58,012 nt of DNA from a candidate division WOR-3 bacterium. Lineage in GTDB: Bacteria > SDB-A. The stretch spans positions 1-58,012 of the forward strand of contig JAFGON010000071.1 in NCBI GenBank assembly GCA_016926475.1. The letters run 5' to 3'. Positions 18,490-42,387 of the stretch are shown piece by piece. How positions within the stretch are numbered: the stretch's first letter is position 1; each line of letters begins with the position of its first letter. The notes beneath the pieces are model-generated. The model made no database searches, was not told the origin of the DNA, and saw nothing but the letters and a program-made list of their open reading frames with translations. A program made the translations under genes and the position numbers.

Positions 18490-18964
18490 AATACTCAGAC
18501 AGAGGTCCTTTCTCAACGTCGATATCAGCGGATTTTGAAAATTTTTTCTTTTCCGGAATAAAATAGATACCGTTGGCAAAACAGTATACCTTTTCCTGTG
18601 TATCTTCAATCGAAGCTTCACAGAATATCGACCTCCTTTTCACCTCCAGAACTTTCCCCCGTGCCTTATATTCTCTGTCAAGCTTCAGAGGAAGCCTGTA
18701 TTTGATTTCCAGGGACATCGTAACTGTCATGATTTGAGTTTTTGCAAAACAAGCCCAGAACATAATCTCGTCAAGAACTGTTCCAGCTATTCCTCCGTGT
18801 AGCATTCCGGGAAAACCCTCGAACTGTCGTTTGGTTTTGAATGATGTCGTCACTTCGTCTTTTCCTTCAAAGAATTCGAGTTGCAGACCATGCTCATTGT
18901 GAGGAGAACACGCGAAGCAATAATAATTGTTTAAGCTTAAAAATGGATTCTTTACTTTTCCCAT
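18482..18964 (-). CDS. PaaI-type hotdog-fold thioesterase
   Basis: 160 residues with the hotdog signature FPGMLHGGIAGTVLDEIMFW (about 52-71), whose His-Gly-Gly and downstream Asp/Glu form the acyl-CoA thioesterase active site. The N terminus carries a Cys pair (YYCFAC) seen in several related 4HBT proteins. It probably hydrolyses acyl-CoA; substrate unknown. No Shine-Dalgarno; the ATG is 10 bases behind a consensus-like promoter. Divergent from lptE. Confidence 0.8.
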   Translation of the reverse strand: MGKVKNPFLSLNNYYCFACSPHNEHGLQLEFFEGKDEVTTSFKTKRQFEGFPGMLHGGIAGTVLDEIMFWACFAKTQIMTVTMSLEIKYRLPLKLDREYKARGKVLEVKRRSIFCEASIEDTQEKVYCFANGIYFIPEKKKFSKSADIDVEKGPLSEYFK

Positions 18965-18979
18965 ATATCAAATAATAAT
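18951..18979 (+). promoter_or_regulatory. possible leaderless promoter of lptE
   Basis: TTTACT (18951-18956), 17-bp spacer, AATAAT (18974-18979, one mismatch to TATAAT). ATG 18988 lies eight bases after it. The -10 box coincides with that of the opposing thioesterase promoter. Confidence 0.4.
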
Positions 18980-19003
18980 AAATGATAATGAAAGTATTGT
19001 CAA
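18975..19003 (-). promoter_or_regulatory. promoter giving a leaderless mRNA for the thioesterase gene
   Basis: Minus strand TTGACA (19003-18998), exactly 17 bp, then TATTAT (18980-18975). The ATG at 18964 begins ten bases past the -10, leaving a leader of about 3-4 nt and no Shine-Dalgarno. Confidence 0.65.
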
Positions 19004-19479
19004 AAAATGTCATAGTGTCAGTTTTAGTTCTTTCCGGTTGTGTGGCTTATTCTTTTCATGGAGGATCTTTCCCCCAGAAAGCCGAAACAATTTCTATTCC
19101 GGTCGCCGATAATTCTTCCGGAATGTACGGTCTGGAACAAGACTTCACCCAAAACGTCAGAAATACATTCATAAAAGACGCGAGGTTGCGCCTGTCTGAT
19201 TCCAAGGATACCGATCTAACTCTTTTGTTGAGAGTGACTGCATATTCCAACGAAGTGTTTTCGTACACTTCGGACGAGCAAATTGAACAGTACCAAGTTT
19301 CCATATCGGTCATCGTGACATACATAAACAACATTGAGAATGACACGATATGGAAGGACAAAGTAATTATTGCTCAGGGCATTTATTCAGCTTATAATCA
19401 GACTGAAGATGACGGTAGGAATTTGGCTTACGATGATTTTTCGAAAAACCTTGTTTCTTTGATGACAGAAAACTGGTAA
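18988..19479 (+). CDS. lptE: LptE-like LPS-assembly lipoprotein
   Basis: About 163 residues. Lipoprotein signal with lipobox LSGC, then the LptE opening CVAYSFHGGSFPQKAETISIP and the family's 'VADNSSGMYGLEQDFT ... IKDARLRL' pattern. LptE plugs the LptD barrel that inserts LPS in the outer membrane. ATG 18988 gives a normal n-region (MKVLSKNVIV); ATG 18982 is a near alternative. No Shine-Dalgarno. It is followed 34 bp later by the HU gene. Confidence 0.8.
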   Translation: MKVLSKNVIVSVLVLSGCVAYSFHGGSFPQKAETISIPVADNSSGMYGLEQDFTQNVRNTFIKDARLRLSDSKDTDLTLLLRVTAYSNEVFSYTSDEQIEQYQVSISVIVTYINNIENDTIWKDKVIIAQGIYSAYNQTEDDGRNLAYDDFSKNLVSLMTENW

Positions 19480-19513
19480 ACTTCGCGGAATGTTTTGATG
19501 CAAAGGAGTCAAA

Positions 19514-19810
19514 ATGAGAGAAACAACAAAGACTAAAATGGATCTAATCAACGAAGTGGCTGAATCCACTGGTTTTCCAAAAAAAGATACGAGCATTATT
19601 GTCAATGCCTTTATAGACGCACTTGTAGGAACGATTGCCAGACACGAAAGAGTTGAGATCAGAGGTTTTGGAGTATTCAAAGTTAAAAGCAGAAAAGGGA
19701 GAAGCGCGATCAATCCCAGAACAAAACAGATGATGAATATCCCCGACCACTCAGCCCCTACTTTCAAACCCGCGAGATTTATAAAGGAATCTGTTAAAAA
19801 AGATCAATAG
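19514..19810 (+). CDS. HU/IHF-family DNA-bending protein
   Basis: 98 residues with the full HU/IHF fold: N-terminal helices (KTKMDLINEVAESTGFPK), RVEIRGFGVFKVKSRKGR leading to the DNA-binding arm (INPRTKQMMNIP), and the tail PTFKPARFIKESV. An AGGAG precedes ATG 19514. It bends DNA in the nucleoid. It is probably transcribed together with the small basic gene and tRNA-Arg downstream. Confidence 0.92.
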   Translation: MRETTKTKMDLINEVAESTGFPKKDTSIIVNAFIDALVGTIARHERVEIRGFGVFKVKSRKGRSAINPRTKQMMNIPDHSAPTFKPARFIKESVKKDQ

Positions 19811-19818
19811 GAGGAACC

Positions 19819-19914
19819 TTGCCCTGCGGAAGAAAAAGAAAATTGCAGAAAATCCGTACTCATAAACTCAAGAAAAAACGTAGACTGAACAGACACAAAA
19901 AGAAAATCAGATAA
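19819..19914 (+). CDS. COX24/AURKAIP1-like small ribosomal protein (mS38/bS22 type), 31 residues
   Basis: A TTG start at 19819, four bases after a perfect GGAGG (19810-19814), opens a 31-codon frame ending at TAA 19914. The product is almost all Lys/Arg and reads PCGRKRKLQKIRTHKLKKK followed by RRLNRHKKK. Proteins beginning MPCGKKRKRHK with repeated THK/RHKKK motifs are the COX24/AURKAIP1-domain peptides of Bacteroidota and relatives, related to mitochondrial mS38 and mycobacterial bS22, which sit near the decoding centre. The family match is from memory of the motif; the start is set by the Shine-Dalgarno. Confidence 0.8.
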   Translation: MPCGRKRKLQKIRTHKLKKKRRLNRHKKKIR

Positions 19915-19933
19915 AAAATAGCTGAAAAGATTC

Positions 19934-20007
19934 GTGCCCGTGGCTCAATCGGATAGAGCAGCGGATTCCGGATCCGCAGGTTGAAGGTTCAAGTCCTTTC
20001 GGGCACG
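19934..20007 (+). tRNA. tRNA-Arg (anticodon CCG)
   Basis: 74-nt cloverleaf: acceptor GTGCCCG/CGGGCAC, D stem GCTC/GAGC, anticodon stem GCGGA/TCCGC with loop TTCCGGA (CCG, reads CGG), T loop TTCAAGT with stem GAAGG/CCTTT, discriminator G. CCA is not encoded. The next gene's ATG begins only seven bases after the 3' end. Confidence 0.95.
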
Positions 20008-20014
20008 CATTGAT

Positions 20015-20845
20015 ATGCGCCAGAAAACTTGCGGTCTCAGAGTTGACATAGACACTAAAAGAGGAAACTGTTCGGGTGTTCCGGCAATACTTAGAATACT
20101 CGCACAAAGGGACGTAAAAGCTTCTTTTTTTATAACCACCGGACCGGATGATTTCATTTTCAGCTTAAATAGAATTTACAGAGAAAAAGGATTTCTATCG
20201 AAATTATTCTCCTTGAGGGAATCTTATTTCCATCTGGTTTCCACGGATTTGTTTTGCAACAGAAAAAAAACTATTGAGCTGATATTGTCCGAAGGACATG
20301 AAGTTGGGGTTCACGGATATTCACATTTTAAATGGATAGCTCTTTTCCGGCCCGAGCTTTCGGAATTATTTTTTGAATACTTAAAAAAAAGCATGCAGGA
20401 ATTTTTCAAATTCGCAGATTATTATCCTTCATTTTCAGGAGCTCCTGGCTGGAAGACTTCCGAAGGTTTGCTGCTTTTGCAGGATTCAATCAATTTCGAT
20501 TGGGCTAGCGACGTGAGGTCCAGATCACCTTTCACTCCGGTTTCTTACAGAGCAAACAGCATCAAGACAATTCAGATACCCGTCACCCTACCGACGCTCG
20601 ATGAAATCCTGATCTCAAAAAATCCACTCAAAGAAGTTTTCGACAACGGAGATATTTATTGCGCCCACGCCGAACTCGAAGGCATAAAATACAAATATTT
20701 TTTGGAACGAATTCTAGACAAGAACAAAGAAAAGGGAGTAATTTTCAAGCCTTTGAGTTATTTCAAGAAAAGAGGATCAAAAGCATACAGGAAAGTCAAA
20801 TACGGTTTTTTACCCGGCAGAACAAATCCGGTGGCTCTCGCGTGA
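20015..20845 (+). CDS. ArnD-like polysaccharide deacetylase
   Basis: 276 residues. The N terminus (GLRVDIDTKRGNCSGVPAIL) with the Asp of RVDIDT, then SFFITTGPDD, EVGVHGYSHFKW (metal-binding His pair) and IQIPVTLPTLDE and IYCAHAELEG correspond point for point to ArnD, which deformylates L-Ara4FN linked to undecaprenyl phosphate. A related sugar-lipid deacylation is inferred; no other arn genes are here. ATG 20015 is seven bases after tRNA-Arg and has no Shine-Dalgarno. It overlaps the radical SAM gene by GTGA. Confidence 0.8.
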   Translation: MRQKTCGLRVDIDTKRGNCSGVPAILRILAQRDVKASFFITTGPDDFIFSLNRIYREKGFLSKLFSLRESYFHLVSTDLFCNRKKTIELILSEGHEVGVHGYSHFKWIALFRPELSELFFEYLKKSMQEFFKFADYYPSFSGAPGWKTSEGLLLLQDSINFDWASDVRSRSPFTPVSYRANSIKTIQIPVTLPTLDEILISKNPLKEVFDNGDIYCAHAELEGIKYKYFLERILDKNKEKGVIFKPLSYFKKRGSKAYRKVKYGFLPGRTNPVALA

Positions 20846-22209
20846 AAAGAAAGATTCTTCTTCTCGCGCCGGCGCAAAAACAACTCTACTCTGGAAAAAT
20901 TCCATATCCGCCTCTTGGACTTTTGTGCCTTTCTTCGGTTTTGGAGAGCAACGGCTTTGAAACAGAACTCGTTCAAGAAGATTTATTTTCAAAAAATAAT
21001 TTACTGCAGAAACTCAATCAAAAAGACGTGCTGTCCGTATTCGCAACATCAACTACAGCTCTTTTTCCAAGAATACAAAAAATTGCCAGCGAGTTAAAAA
21101 TAAATCAAGGTCCTCCTGTCATGCTCGGCGGACCTCACGCCACTTCATACGGCAAAGATTCTCTCACAGAAGGCATAGTAGCCGCGGTTCAAGGAGAAGG
21201 CGAGACGACTGCAGTAAACCTCGCGTTCAAACTCTATGAAAATTCAGACATATCAGGCTTGAAAGGCGTCGTTACAAGAGAAAAATCGAACCCTTTACCC
21301 GATTTCATAAATGATCTGGACACCTTGCCTTTTCCGAATTACGGAAAGGTAAAAGACTGGAAAGTATTCAAACCGCCAGAGTCTAAATCTTCTCCAGCTA
21401 TCCCGGTCTCCTTCAGCAGAGGGTGCACAGGCAACTGTGTTTTCTGCTCGACCCCGAGCGTATGGGGGAAAAAAGTTAGAAGGATGACAACCGATAGAGC
21501 TCTCGAACTGATTGAATACGCCGTTTCAGAATACAAAGCTAAAGAAATTCACATCACCGACGATGATTTTTCGGGTGACAGAGACTGGACAGAAGATTTC
21601 CTGTTCATGTTGAGAAAAAAAAAACTTCCGGTTTCTTTTTTTTTCATGAACGGAATCAGACCTTCCAATATCGACAGAGATCTTCTCAGGCAGCTAAAGC
21701 ACTCGAATTTTCTAAACGCCGGTTACGGAATAGAAACCTCTGACAAAGAAATTTTCAGTAAAATCGGCAAATCTGTCAGCATAAAAAAATACGAAGAGGC
21801 GATAAAATTATCCTCTGAAGAGGGTTTGACCACATGGGTTTTCTATATATTCGGACTACCCGGAGAGACGAGAGAGACCGTTGAAAAAGACGTCCTTCAC
21901 GCGATTTCATCTAAAGCTCATTTCGCAAAATTTTTCATTCTCCAACCATACAAAGGCACAAGGATTCACAGGATTTATTCGAAAATGAAAATAATCGGGA
22001 GAGGACCCCAGAAAGGTCTTTACGAAAGCGCTGGTCTTCAACTGCCTGGATTTTCTCCGGGTGAAATGGAAAAAATGCTAAAAAAAGCCTATTTGAAATT
22101 TTACTCCAACCCCGCGACGATTTTTAGAATTCTCAAAGTCTCGAGAAATTTCAGCGCGGGTTCATTTTTTTCCGATTTCAAATTTGTCTTGAAAATGATG
22201 AGAGGCTAA
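20842..22209 (+). CDS. B12-binding-domain radical SAM protein
   Basis: 455 residues from the GTG at 20842 (GTGA overlap with the deacetylase stop). N-terminal Rossmann-like cobalamin-binding type domain (ILLLAPAQKQ; PYPPLGLLCLSSVLE; PPVMLGGPHA), then a radical SAM barrel with the 4Fe-4S motif C195-x3-C199-x2-C202 (SRGCTGNCVFCS) and ITDDDFSGD. The B12 domain lacks DxHxxG, as in many of this class. Relatives do methylations or ring rearrangements of lipids and cofactors. Between a sugar deacetylase and a membrane glycosyltransferase-like protein, it probably modifies an envelope lipid or sugar. Confidence 0.85.
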   Translation: MKRKILLLAPAQKQLYSGKIPYPPLGLLCLSSVLESNGFETELVQEDLFSKNNLLQKLNQKDVLSVFATSTTALFPRIQKIASELKINQGPPVMLGGPHATSYGKDSLTEGIVAAVQGEGETTAVNLAFKLYENSDISGLKGVVTREKSNPLPDFINDLDTLPFPNYGKVKDWKVFKPPESKSSPAIPVSFSRGCTGNCVFCSTPSVWGKKVRRMTTDRALELIEYAVSEYKAKEIHITDDDFSGDRDWTEDFLFMLRKKKLPVSFFFMNGIRPSNIDRDLLRQLKHSNFLNAGYGIETSDKEIFSKIGKSVSIKKYEEAIKLSSEEGLTTWVFYIFGLPGETRETVEKDVLHAISSKAHFAKFFILQPYKGTRIHRIYSKMKIIGRGPQKGLYESAGLQLPGFSPGEMEKMLKKAYLKFYSNPATIFRILKVSRNFSAGSFFSDFKFVLKMMRG

Positions 22210-42314: not shown

Positions 42315-42387
42315 AGCCGATGGGCGGATTCGAACCGCCTACCCGCGCATTACGAATGCGCTGCTCTACCATCTGAGCTACACCGGC
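42315..42387 (-). tRNA. tRNA-Thr (anticodon CGT)
   Basis: 73-nt cloverleaf on the minus strand: acceptor GCCGGTG/CATCGGC, D stem GCTC/GAGC, anticodon stem GCGCA/TGCGC with loop TTCGTAA (CGT, reads ACG), T stem GGCGG/CCGCC with TTCGAAT loop, discriminator T. CCA is not encoded. A protein-coding frame begins immediately after it. Confidence 0.95.

Follow-up and report, generated by a model that had tools for sequence, protein, structure and literature searches.

Can the maturation of a tRNA make the 5' end of a bacterial mRNA? The question is raised by a tRNA-Arg(CCG) gene that stands directly before an ArnD-like deacetylase gene on the same strand. The window, i.e. the whole stretch of 58,012 nt that was analysed, corresponds to contig C71 of an assembly of 106 contigs that total 2.15 Mb (G000). 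Its relevant features are:

18982..19479, + strand: LptE-like lipoprotein gene (named from resemblance alone), probable upstream member of the transcription unit
19514..19810, + strand: HU/IHF-type DNA-binding protein gene (Pfam PF00216, E=1e-26), Shine-Dalgarno sequence (SD) aaaggagt
19819..19914, + strand: gene of a COX24-like basic peptide of 31 aa (putative name, from the first-pass annotation), translation LPCGRKRKLQKIRTHKLKKKRRLNRHKKKIR
19934..20007, + strand: tRNA-Arg(CCG), 74 nt, discriminator G, CCA not encoded (Rfam model)
20008..20014, + strand: spacer CATTGAT, 7 nt, the predicted entire 5' leader once the tRNA 3' end is cut
20015..20845, + strand: ArnD-like polysaccharide deacetylase gene, 276 aa, ATG at 20015-20017, without SD
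20841..22209, + strand: B12-binding radical SAM gene (PF04055, PF02310), probable GTG start overlapping the ArnD stop
42315..42387, - strand: tRNA-Thr(CGT), followed 2-20 nt later by a same-strand ORF for a putative secreted protein, no clear SD

Anatomy of the tRNA-ArnD junction

Position 20006 closes the acceptor stem of tRNA-Arg(CCG) and is followed by the discriminator G (20007). The end reported by ARAGORN (20008) is one base too long, as stem pairing and the Rfam model both give 20007. The first-pass annotation had placed the deacetylase ATG seven bases past the tRNA 3' end, and this was borne out. Upstream, the frame reads TGA(19982) AGG TTC AAG TCC TTT CGG GCA CGC ATT GAT ATG and contains no ATG, GTG or TTG. 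The ATG at 20015 is therefore the sole possible start. Homologues, those from other phyla included, share this start residue with the window protein, and a mis-called start was ruled out on both grounds. A gap of just 7 nt between the tRNA and the AUG is too short to hold a promoter or a terminator.

The protein matched NF011923 (E=1.8e-37) with 129 bits, which is below the curated NCBIfam cut-off of 382, and PF01522 (E=1.2e-6). Because of the low NF011923 score, we call it an ArnD-like polysaccharide deacetylase and not ArnD proper (4-deoxy-4-formamido-L-arabinose-phosphoundecaprenol deformylase).

The tRNA separates two cistrons, with the stop of the COX24-like gene 19 nt before it and the ArnD-like ATG 7 nt after it. 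The COX24-like gene has a TTG start at 19819, a stop at 19912-19914 and an SD (aggagg) overlapping the HU stop. As HU and the COX24-like gene carry SDs and closely precede the tRNA, the region reads most naturally as a single transcript. HU, the COX24-like gene, the tRNA and the deacetylase all lie on the + strand, as had been annotated. The absence of a promoter between tRNA and ATG was likewise confirmed: a sigma-70 scan found no + strand promoter-like site in 19480-20015, with the reservation that the promoter rules of this phylum may differ. No terminator-like site was found in 18900-20300. Co-transcription of the tRNA and the ArnD-like gene, which the annotation had set as a condition, is likely from the anatomy, i.e. 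the tight synteny, the 19-nt spacer, the 7-8 nt gap and the lack of promoter- or terminator-like sites in the scanned ranges. The radical SAM gene is the probable next member of the ArnD-like gene's transcription unit.

Conservation within and outside the phylum

Four genomes of the phylum were compared: that of the window, two of the same genus (G001 and G002) and one of the same family (G003). The order lptE-like - HU - COX24-like - tRNA-Arg(CCG) - ArnD-like was kept in all four, each time with an ATG start of the ArnD-like gene. The gaps past the discriminator were 7 (cattgat), 7 (gagaaat), 7 (gaaaaat) and 8 nt (ccaaaagt) for G000 to G003, and a CCA after the discriminator was present in G003. 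This puts the arrangement beyond chance. The gap was constant although the leader sequences and the proteins had diverged (54, 53 and 40% identity to the window protein in G001, G002 and G003).

The neighbouring genes were also conserved. The LptE-like gene had the same position in G001 and G002 (71-72% identity) and in G003 (49%). The COX24-like gene was found in all three relatives, with a similarly short distance to the tRNA. The radical SAM gene was adjacent to the ArnD-like gene in G001 and G002 (62-67% identical) and overlapped it, and two more genes beyond it also stayed attached in these two genomes. The public record LKUE01000128.1, named Desulfuromonas sp. SDB, is the same contig as in G003, and its organism name looks wrong.

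Three outgroup WOR-3 genomes (G145, G159 and G160) had the same gene order with tRNA-to-ArnD distances of 293, 263 and 149 nt. In these genomes, the COX24-like stop touches the first base of the tRNA (0 nt). In two of them, a hairpin follows soon after the tRNA; that of G159 is ATCCTGG..CCAGGAT with a run rich in T behind it, and that of G160 has a longer stem. Separate transcription of ArnD is likely in all three. In two other WOR-3 genomes, ArnD is located elsewhere, behind an apparent methyltransferase gene and with no tRNA. Relatives with the ORF far from a tRNA had been named as evidence against a tRNA-made 5' end. They were seen outside the phylum only, so there is no refutation within the phylum, and the tight form is lineage-specific. 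The simplest history would be that the spacer was lost in this phylum.

Leader, tRNA processing and competing readings

A cut after the discriminator would give an ArnD message that starts CAUUGAUAUG, with a leader of 7 nt. Leaderless mRNAs have been defined as having a leader below 10 nt (PMC4681348), and the predicted leader falls under this limit, provided that the discriminator is where the cut falls. Folding predictions for the new 5' end left the AUG unpaired in the minimum-energy structures of G000 and G001; for G002, the same held at least for the centroid structure. The predicted folded 5' end of G003 pairs; there, the cut may lie after the CCA, leaving 5 nt. Folding of the tRNA together with the leader was uninformative, as the minimum-energy structure had no cloverleaf (z -0.77). 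A start-codon hairpin (CGCAT-TGAT-ATGCG, 20003-20019), which the tRNA cut would shorten, was found in G000 only and was absent in the relatives; it was put down to chance.

The lack of an SD before the deacetylase, which had been part of the original argument, was confirmed by the SD energy at its start (-2.5 kcal/mol). As an argument it is weak. A clear SD was found in 24 of 84 (longest start) to 48 of 84 (best start) G000 genes that are not close behind another gene, compared with 16% of random intragenic positions. With 43-71% of such genes lacking an SD, its absence is not diagnostic and was dropped as proof in itself, and is compatible with near-leaderless translation. Among the relatives, the ArnD-like start had a partial SD in G001 (-6.6 kcal/mol), a weak one in G002 (-3.5 kcal/mol) and none in G003. 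In G001, a GGAG consisting of the discriminator and the first leader bases straddles the junction and could act in the uncleaved transcript.

CCA is not encoded in 35 of the 42 tRNAs of G000, so precise 3' cutting and CCA addition are expected. In none of the four phylum genomes did a search for RNase Z give a match over the curated cut-off. The best G000 match, an MBL-fold protein encoded at C4:17875-18669, scored 91.6 bits where the cut-off is 293. G003 had a better candidate, without a relative in G000-G002. Since five of 14 control genomes were also under the cut-off, the shortfall is not proof of absence. RNase Z is the weakest link in the reading that a tRNA cut makes the ArnD 5' end.

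RNase P sets the 5' end of a tRNA. In the explanation we favour, tRNA-Arg(CCG) would be an internal cistron of a transcript running lptE-like - HU - COX24-like - tRNA-Arg - arnD - radical SAM. RNase P would cut at the 5' end of the tRNA and an RNase Z-type or other endonuclease at its 3' end, which would release the tRNA. The two cuts would leave separate messengers for HU/COX24 and for arnD/radical SAM, the latter with a 7-nt leader, and translation of arnD would begin at the 5'-proximal AUG of a nearly leaderless mRNA. Cleavage at the discriminator giving a stable arnD 5' end is plausible from the sequence, and we have moderate confidence in near-leaderless translation of arnD. The explanation as a whole seems to us reasonably probable. 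The proposal that tRNA maturation makes the deacetylase 5' end is partly supported, by the anatomy, the conservation in all four genomes and the recurrence of such junctions (see the following section); among the points against it are the lack of a confident RNase Z in G000, the GGAG of G001, the CCA and paired 5' end of G003 and the many SD-less genes.

The same RNase Z result, extended to G001 and G002, favours a reading in which the tRNA is matured by a cut farther downstream followed by exonuclease trimming. Each transcript would then yield either the tRNA or the ArnD message, not both, and most ArnD protein would come from uncleaved or partly cleaved transcripts. The GGAG across the junction in G001 fits this as well. 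However, a folded tRNA 7 nt upstream of the AUG should hinder ribosome binding, and the strict 7-8 nt spacing is left unexplained. We find this reading unlikely. Plain compaction is an alternative history, in which a deletion removed a spacer of the outgroup type, arnD is weakly expressed by read-through and the tRNA cut has no role. The WOR-3 relatives with their 149-293 nt spacers are consistent with this, as is the fact that about half of the genes have no SD anyway. The gap, however, stayed at 7-8 nt while protein identity fell to 40-54%, and a tRNA-Gln(CTG)-ORF pair keeps a tight gap as well; compaction without a role of the cut is in our view distinctly improbable. Lastly, arnD might have its own promoter inside the COX24 or tRNA gene, with a leader that includes some or all of the tRNA. 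The sigma-70 scan may miss promoters of this phylum, but it found no + strand site from 19480 to 20015, a start within the tRNA would still give an SD-less leader, and the tRNA sequence is constrained by its own function. We give this reading very little credence.

tRNA-ORF junctions across the phylum and in known systems

The survey took in tRNAs followed by 500 nt or more of sequence within targeted stretches, with ORFs called mechanically. An ORF of ≥150 aa on the same strand started within 60 nt of 14/34 tRNAs in G000, 10/21 in G001, 12/22 in G002 and 14/24 in G003. This corresponds to 41-58% in the phylum genomes vs 16/186 (9%) in other phyla (Fisher p=9e-6 for G000 alone), where the control tRNAs came from stretches around the highest-scoring tRNAs and were not a random sample, and the related genomes are not independent of each other. 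The WOR-3 genome G145 had 5/18.

Most of the trailers between tRNA and ORF hold an SD (Lys-TTT, Ala-GGC, Arg-ACG to tadA, Arg-CCT, Leu-TAG to trigger factor and Val-GAC to a ThrS-like gene). Gaps of ≤14 nt occurred two to four times per phylum genome. Those with an ATG start were Arg-CCG before the ArnD-like gene, Gln-CTG (no SD, three species, constant gaps of 10, 11 and 11 nt past the CCA), Leu-CAG (12 nt in G000, no SD), Leu-TAA (11-12 nt, with AAGGA), Thr-CGT (G001) and Pro-TGG (G003). In the control set, an ATG-started ORF at a gap of ≤14 nt was found in 0/186, and there were four GTG/TTG candidates. The tRNA-Thr(CGT)/secreted-protein pair is a second case within the window. It has no clear SD in any of the three genus members; the ATG is 8 nt past the discriminator in G001, and G000 has a TTG at 2 nt or an ATG at 20 nt. 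Hence tRNA-Gln(CTG), tRNA-Leu(CAG) and tRNA-Thr(CGT) all stand closely before ORFs with no clear SD. The first-pass annotation had asked for recurring gaps below 10 bases; short gaps do recur in the phylum, mostly at 10-14 nt and not below 10.

The tight placement of tRNAs before ORFs throughout the phylum is more interesting than the ArnD-like case alone. Only tentatively do we suggest that the phylum uses tRNA excision as a regular maker of mRNA 5' ends, in which case the ArnD-like gene and the ORFs behind Gln(CTG), Leu(CAG) and Thr(CGT) would be near-leaderless and dependent on tRNA processing, as in mitochondria. Not every tRNA neighbour is co-transcribed, as a conserved hairpin after tRNA-Glu(TTC) indicates. 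This GC-rich hairpin directly follows the tRNA in all four genomes, with an SD-less ORF 43-54 nt on; it is probably a terminator, and the next ORF probably a separate transcript.

In bacteria, operons are known in which protein genes follow a tRNA, e.g. tRNA-Trp-secE-nusG, thrT-tufB, tRNA-Val-thrS and tRNA-Leu-tig. The junctions described here are similarly co-oriented and close. The phylum has tRNA-Leu(TAG)-tig (by family search) and, by resemblance, tRNA-Val(GAC) before a ThrS-like protein and tRNA-Trp before a SecE-like protein. The trailers of the known operons are long enough for an SD, whereas that of the ArnD-like gene is too short. tRNA punctuation is known from animal mitochondrial transcripts (Ojala, Montoya and Attardi 1981, cited in PMC4995348). 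As there, the tRNA abuts the ORF, and its excision would make an mRNA 5' end with a nearly absent leader. Unlike in mitochondria, the setting is a bacterial chromosome on which many genes use SDs and this placement is confined to a subset of the ORFs, and the processing is predicted. Transcripts of the Plasmodium apicoplast, whose genome is of bacterial descent, are also cut at tRNAs (PMC4995348). The apicoplast is an organelle, and the present case is a free-living bacterium. Actinobacterial leaderless mRNAs (P. acnes, PMC3848588; S. coelicolor, PMC4681348) share the leader below 10 nt that makes a canonical SD impossible, a property predicted here, but their mapped 5' ends are transcription starts and not tRNA processing ends. 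A literature search covering few subscription journals returned no account of tRNA 3' processing as the source of a bacterial mRNA 5' end.

Accounts of tRNA punctuation usually tie it to organelles with compact genomes. With 41-58% of the surveyed tRNAs leading into co-oriented ORFs, in some cases across a gap too short for an SD, the phylum would be a natural setting to study tRNA processing as a maker of bacterial mRNA 5' ends or as a control point. It also lets one ask how the arrangement arises, as the outgroups have the same order with a long spacer.

Some tRNAs are tightly flanked on both sides. In contig C56 of G000, the stop of a 289-aa CDS lies 0 nt before tRNA-Gln(TTG) and prs follows 17-19 nt after it, which is kept in three species. 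tRNA-Ala(GGC) is sandwiched between a CDS stop 2 nt before and a CDS 31 nt after. Positions 1-8000 of contig C64 in G000 carry, on one strand, tRNA-Leu(GAG), ORFs of 472, 506 and 254 aa, tRNA-Gln(CTG), an ORF of 277 aa and tRNA-Met; by eye, the 506-aa product is MscS-like and the 254-aa product signal peptidase I-like.
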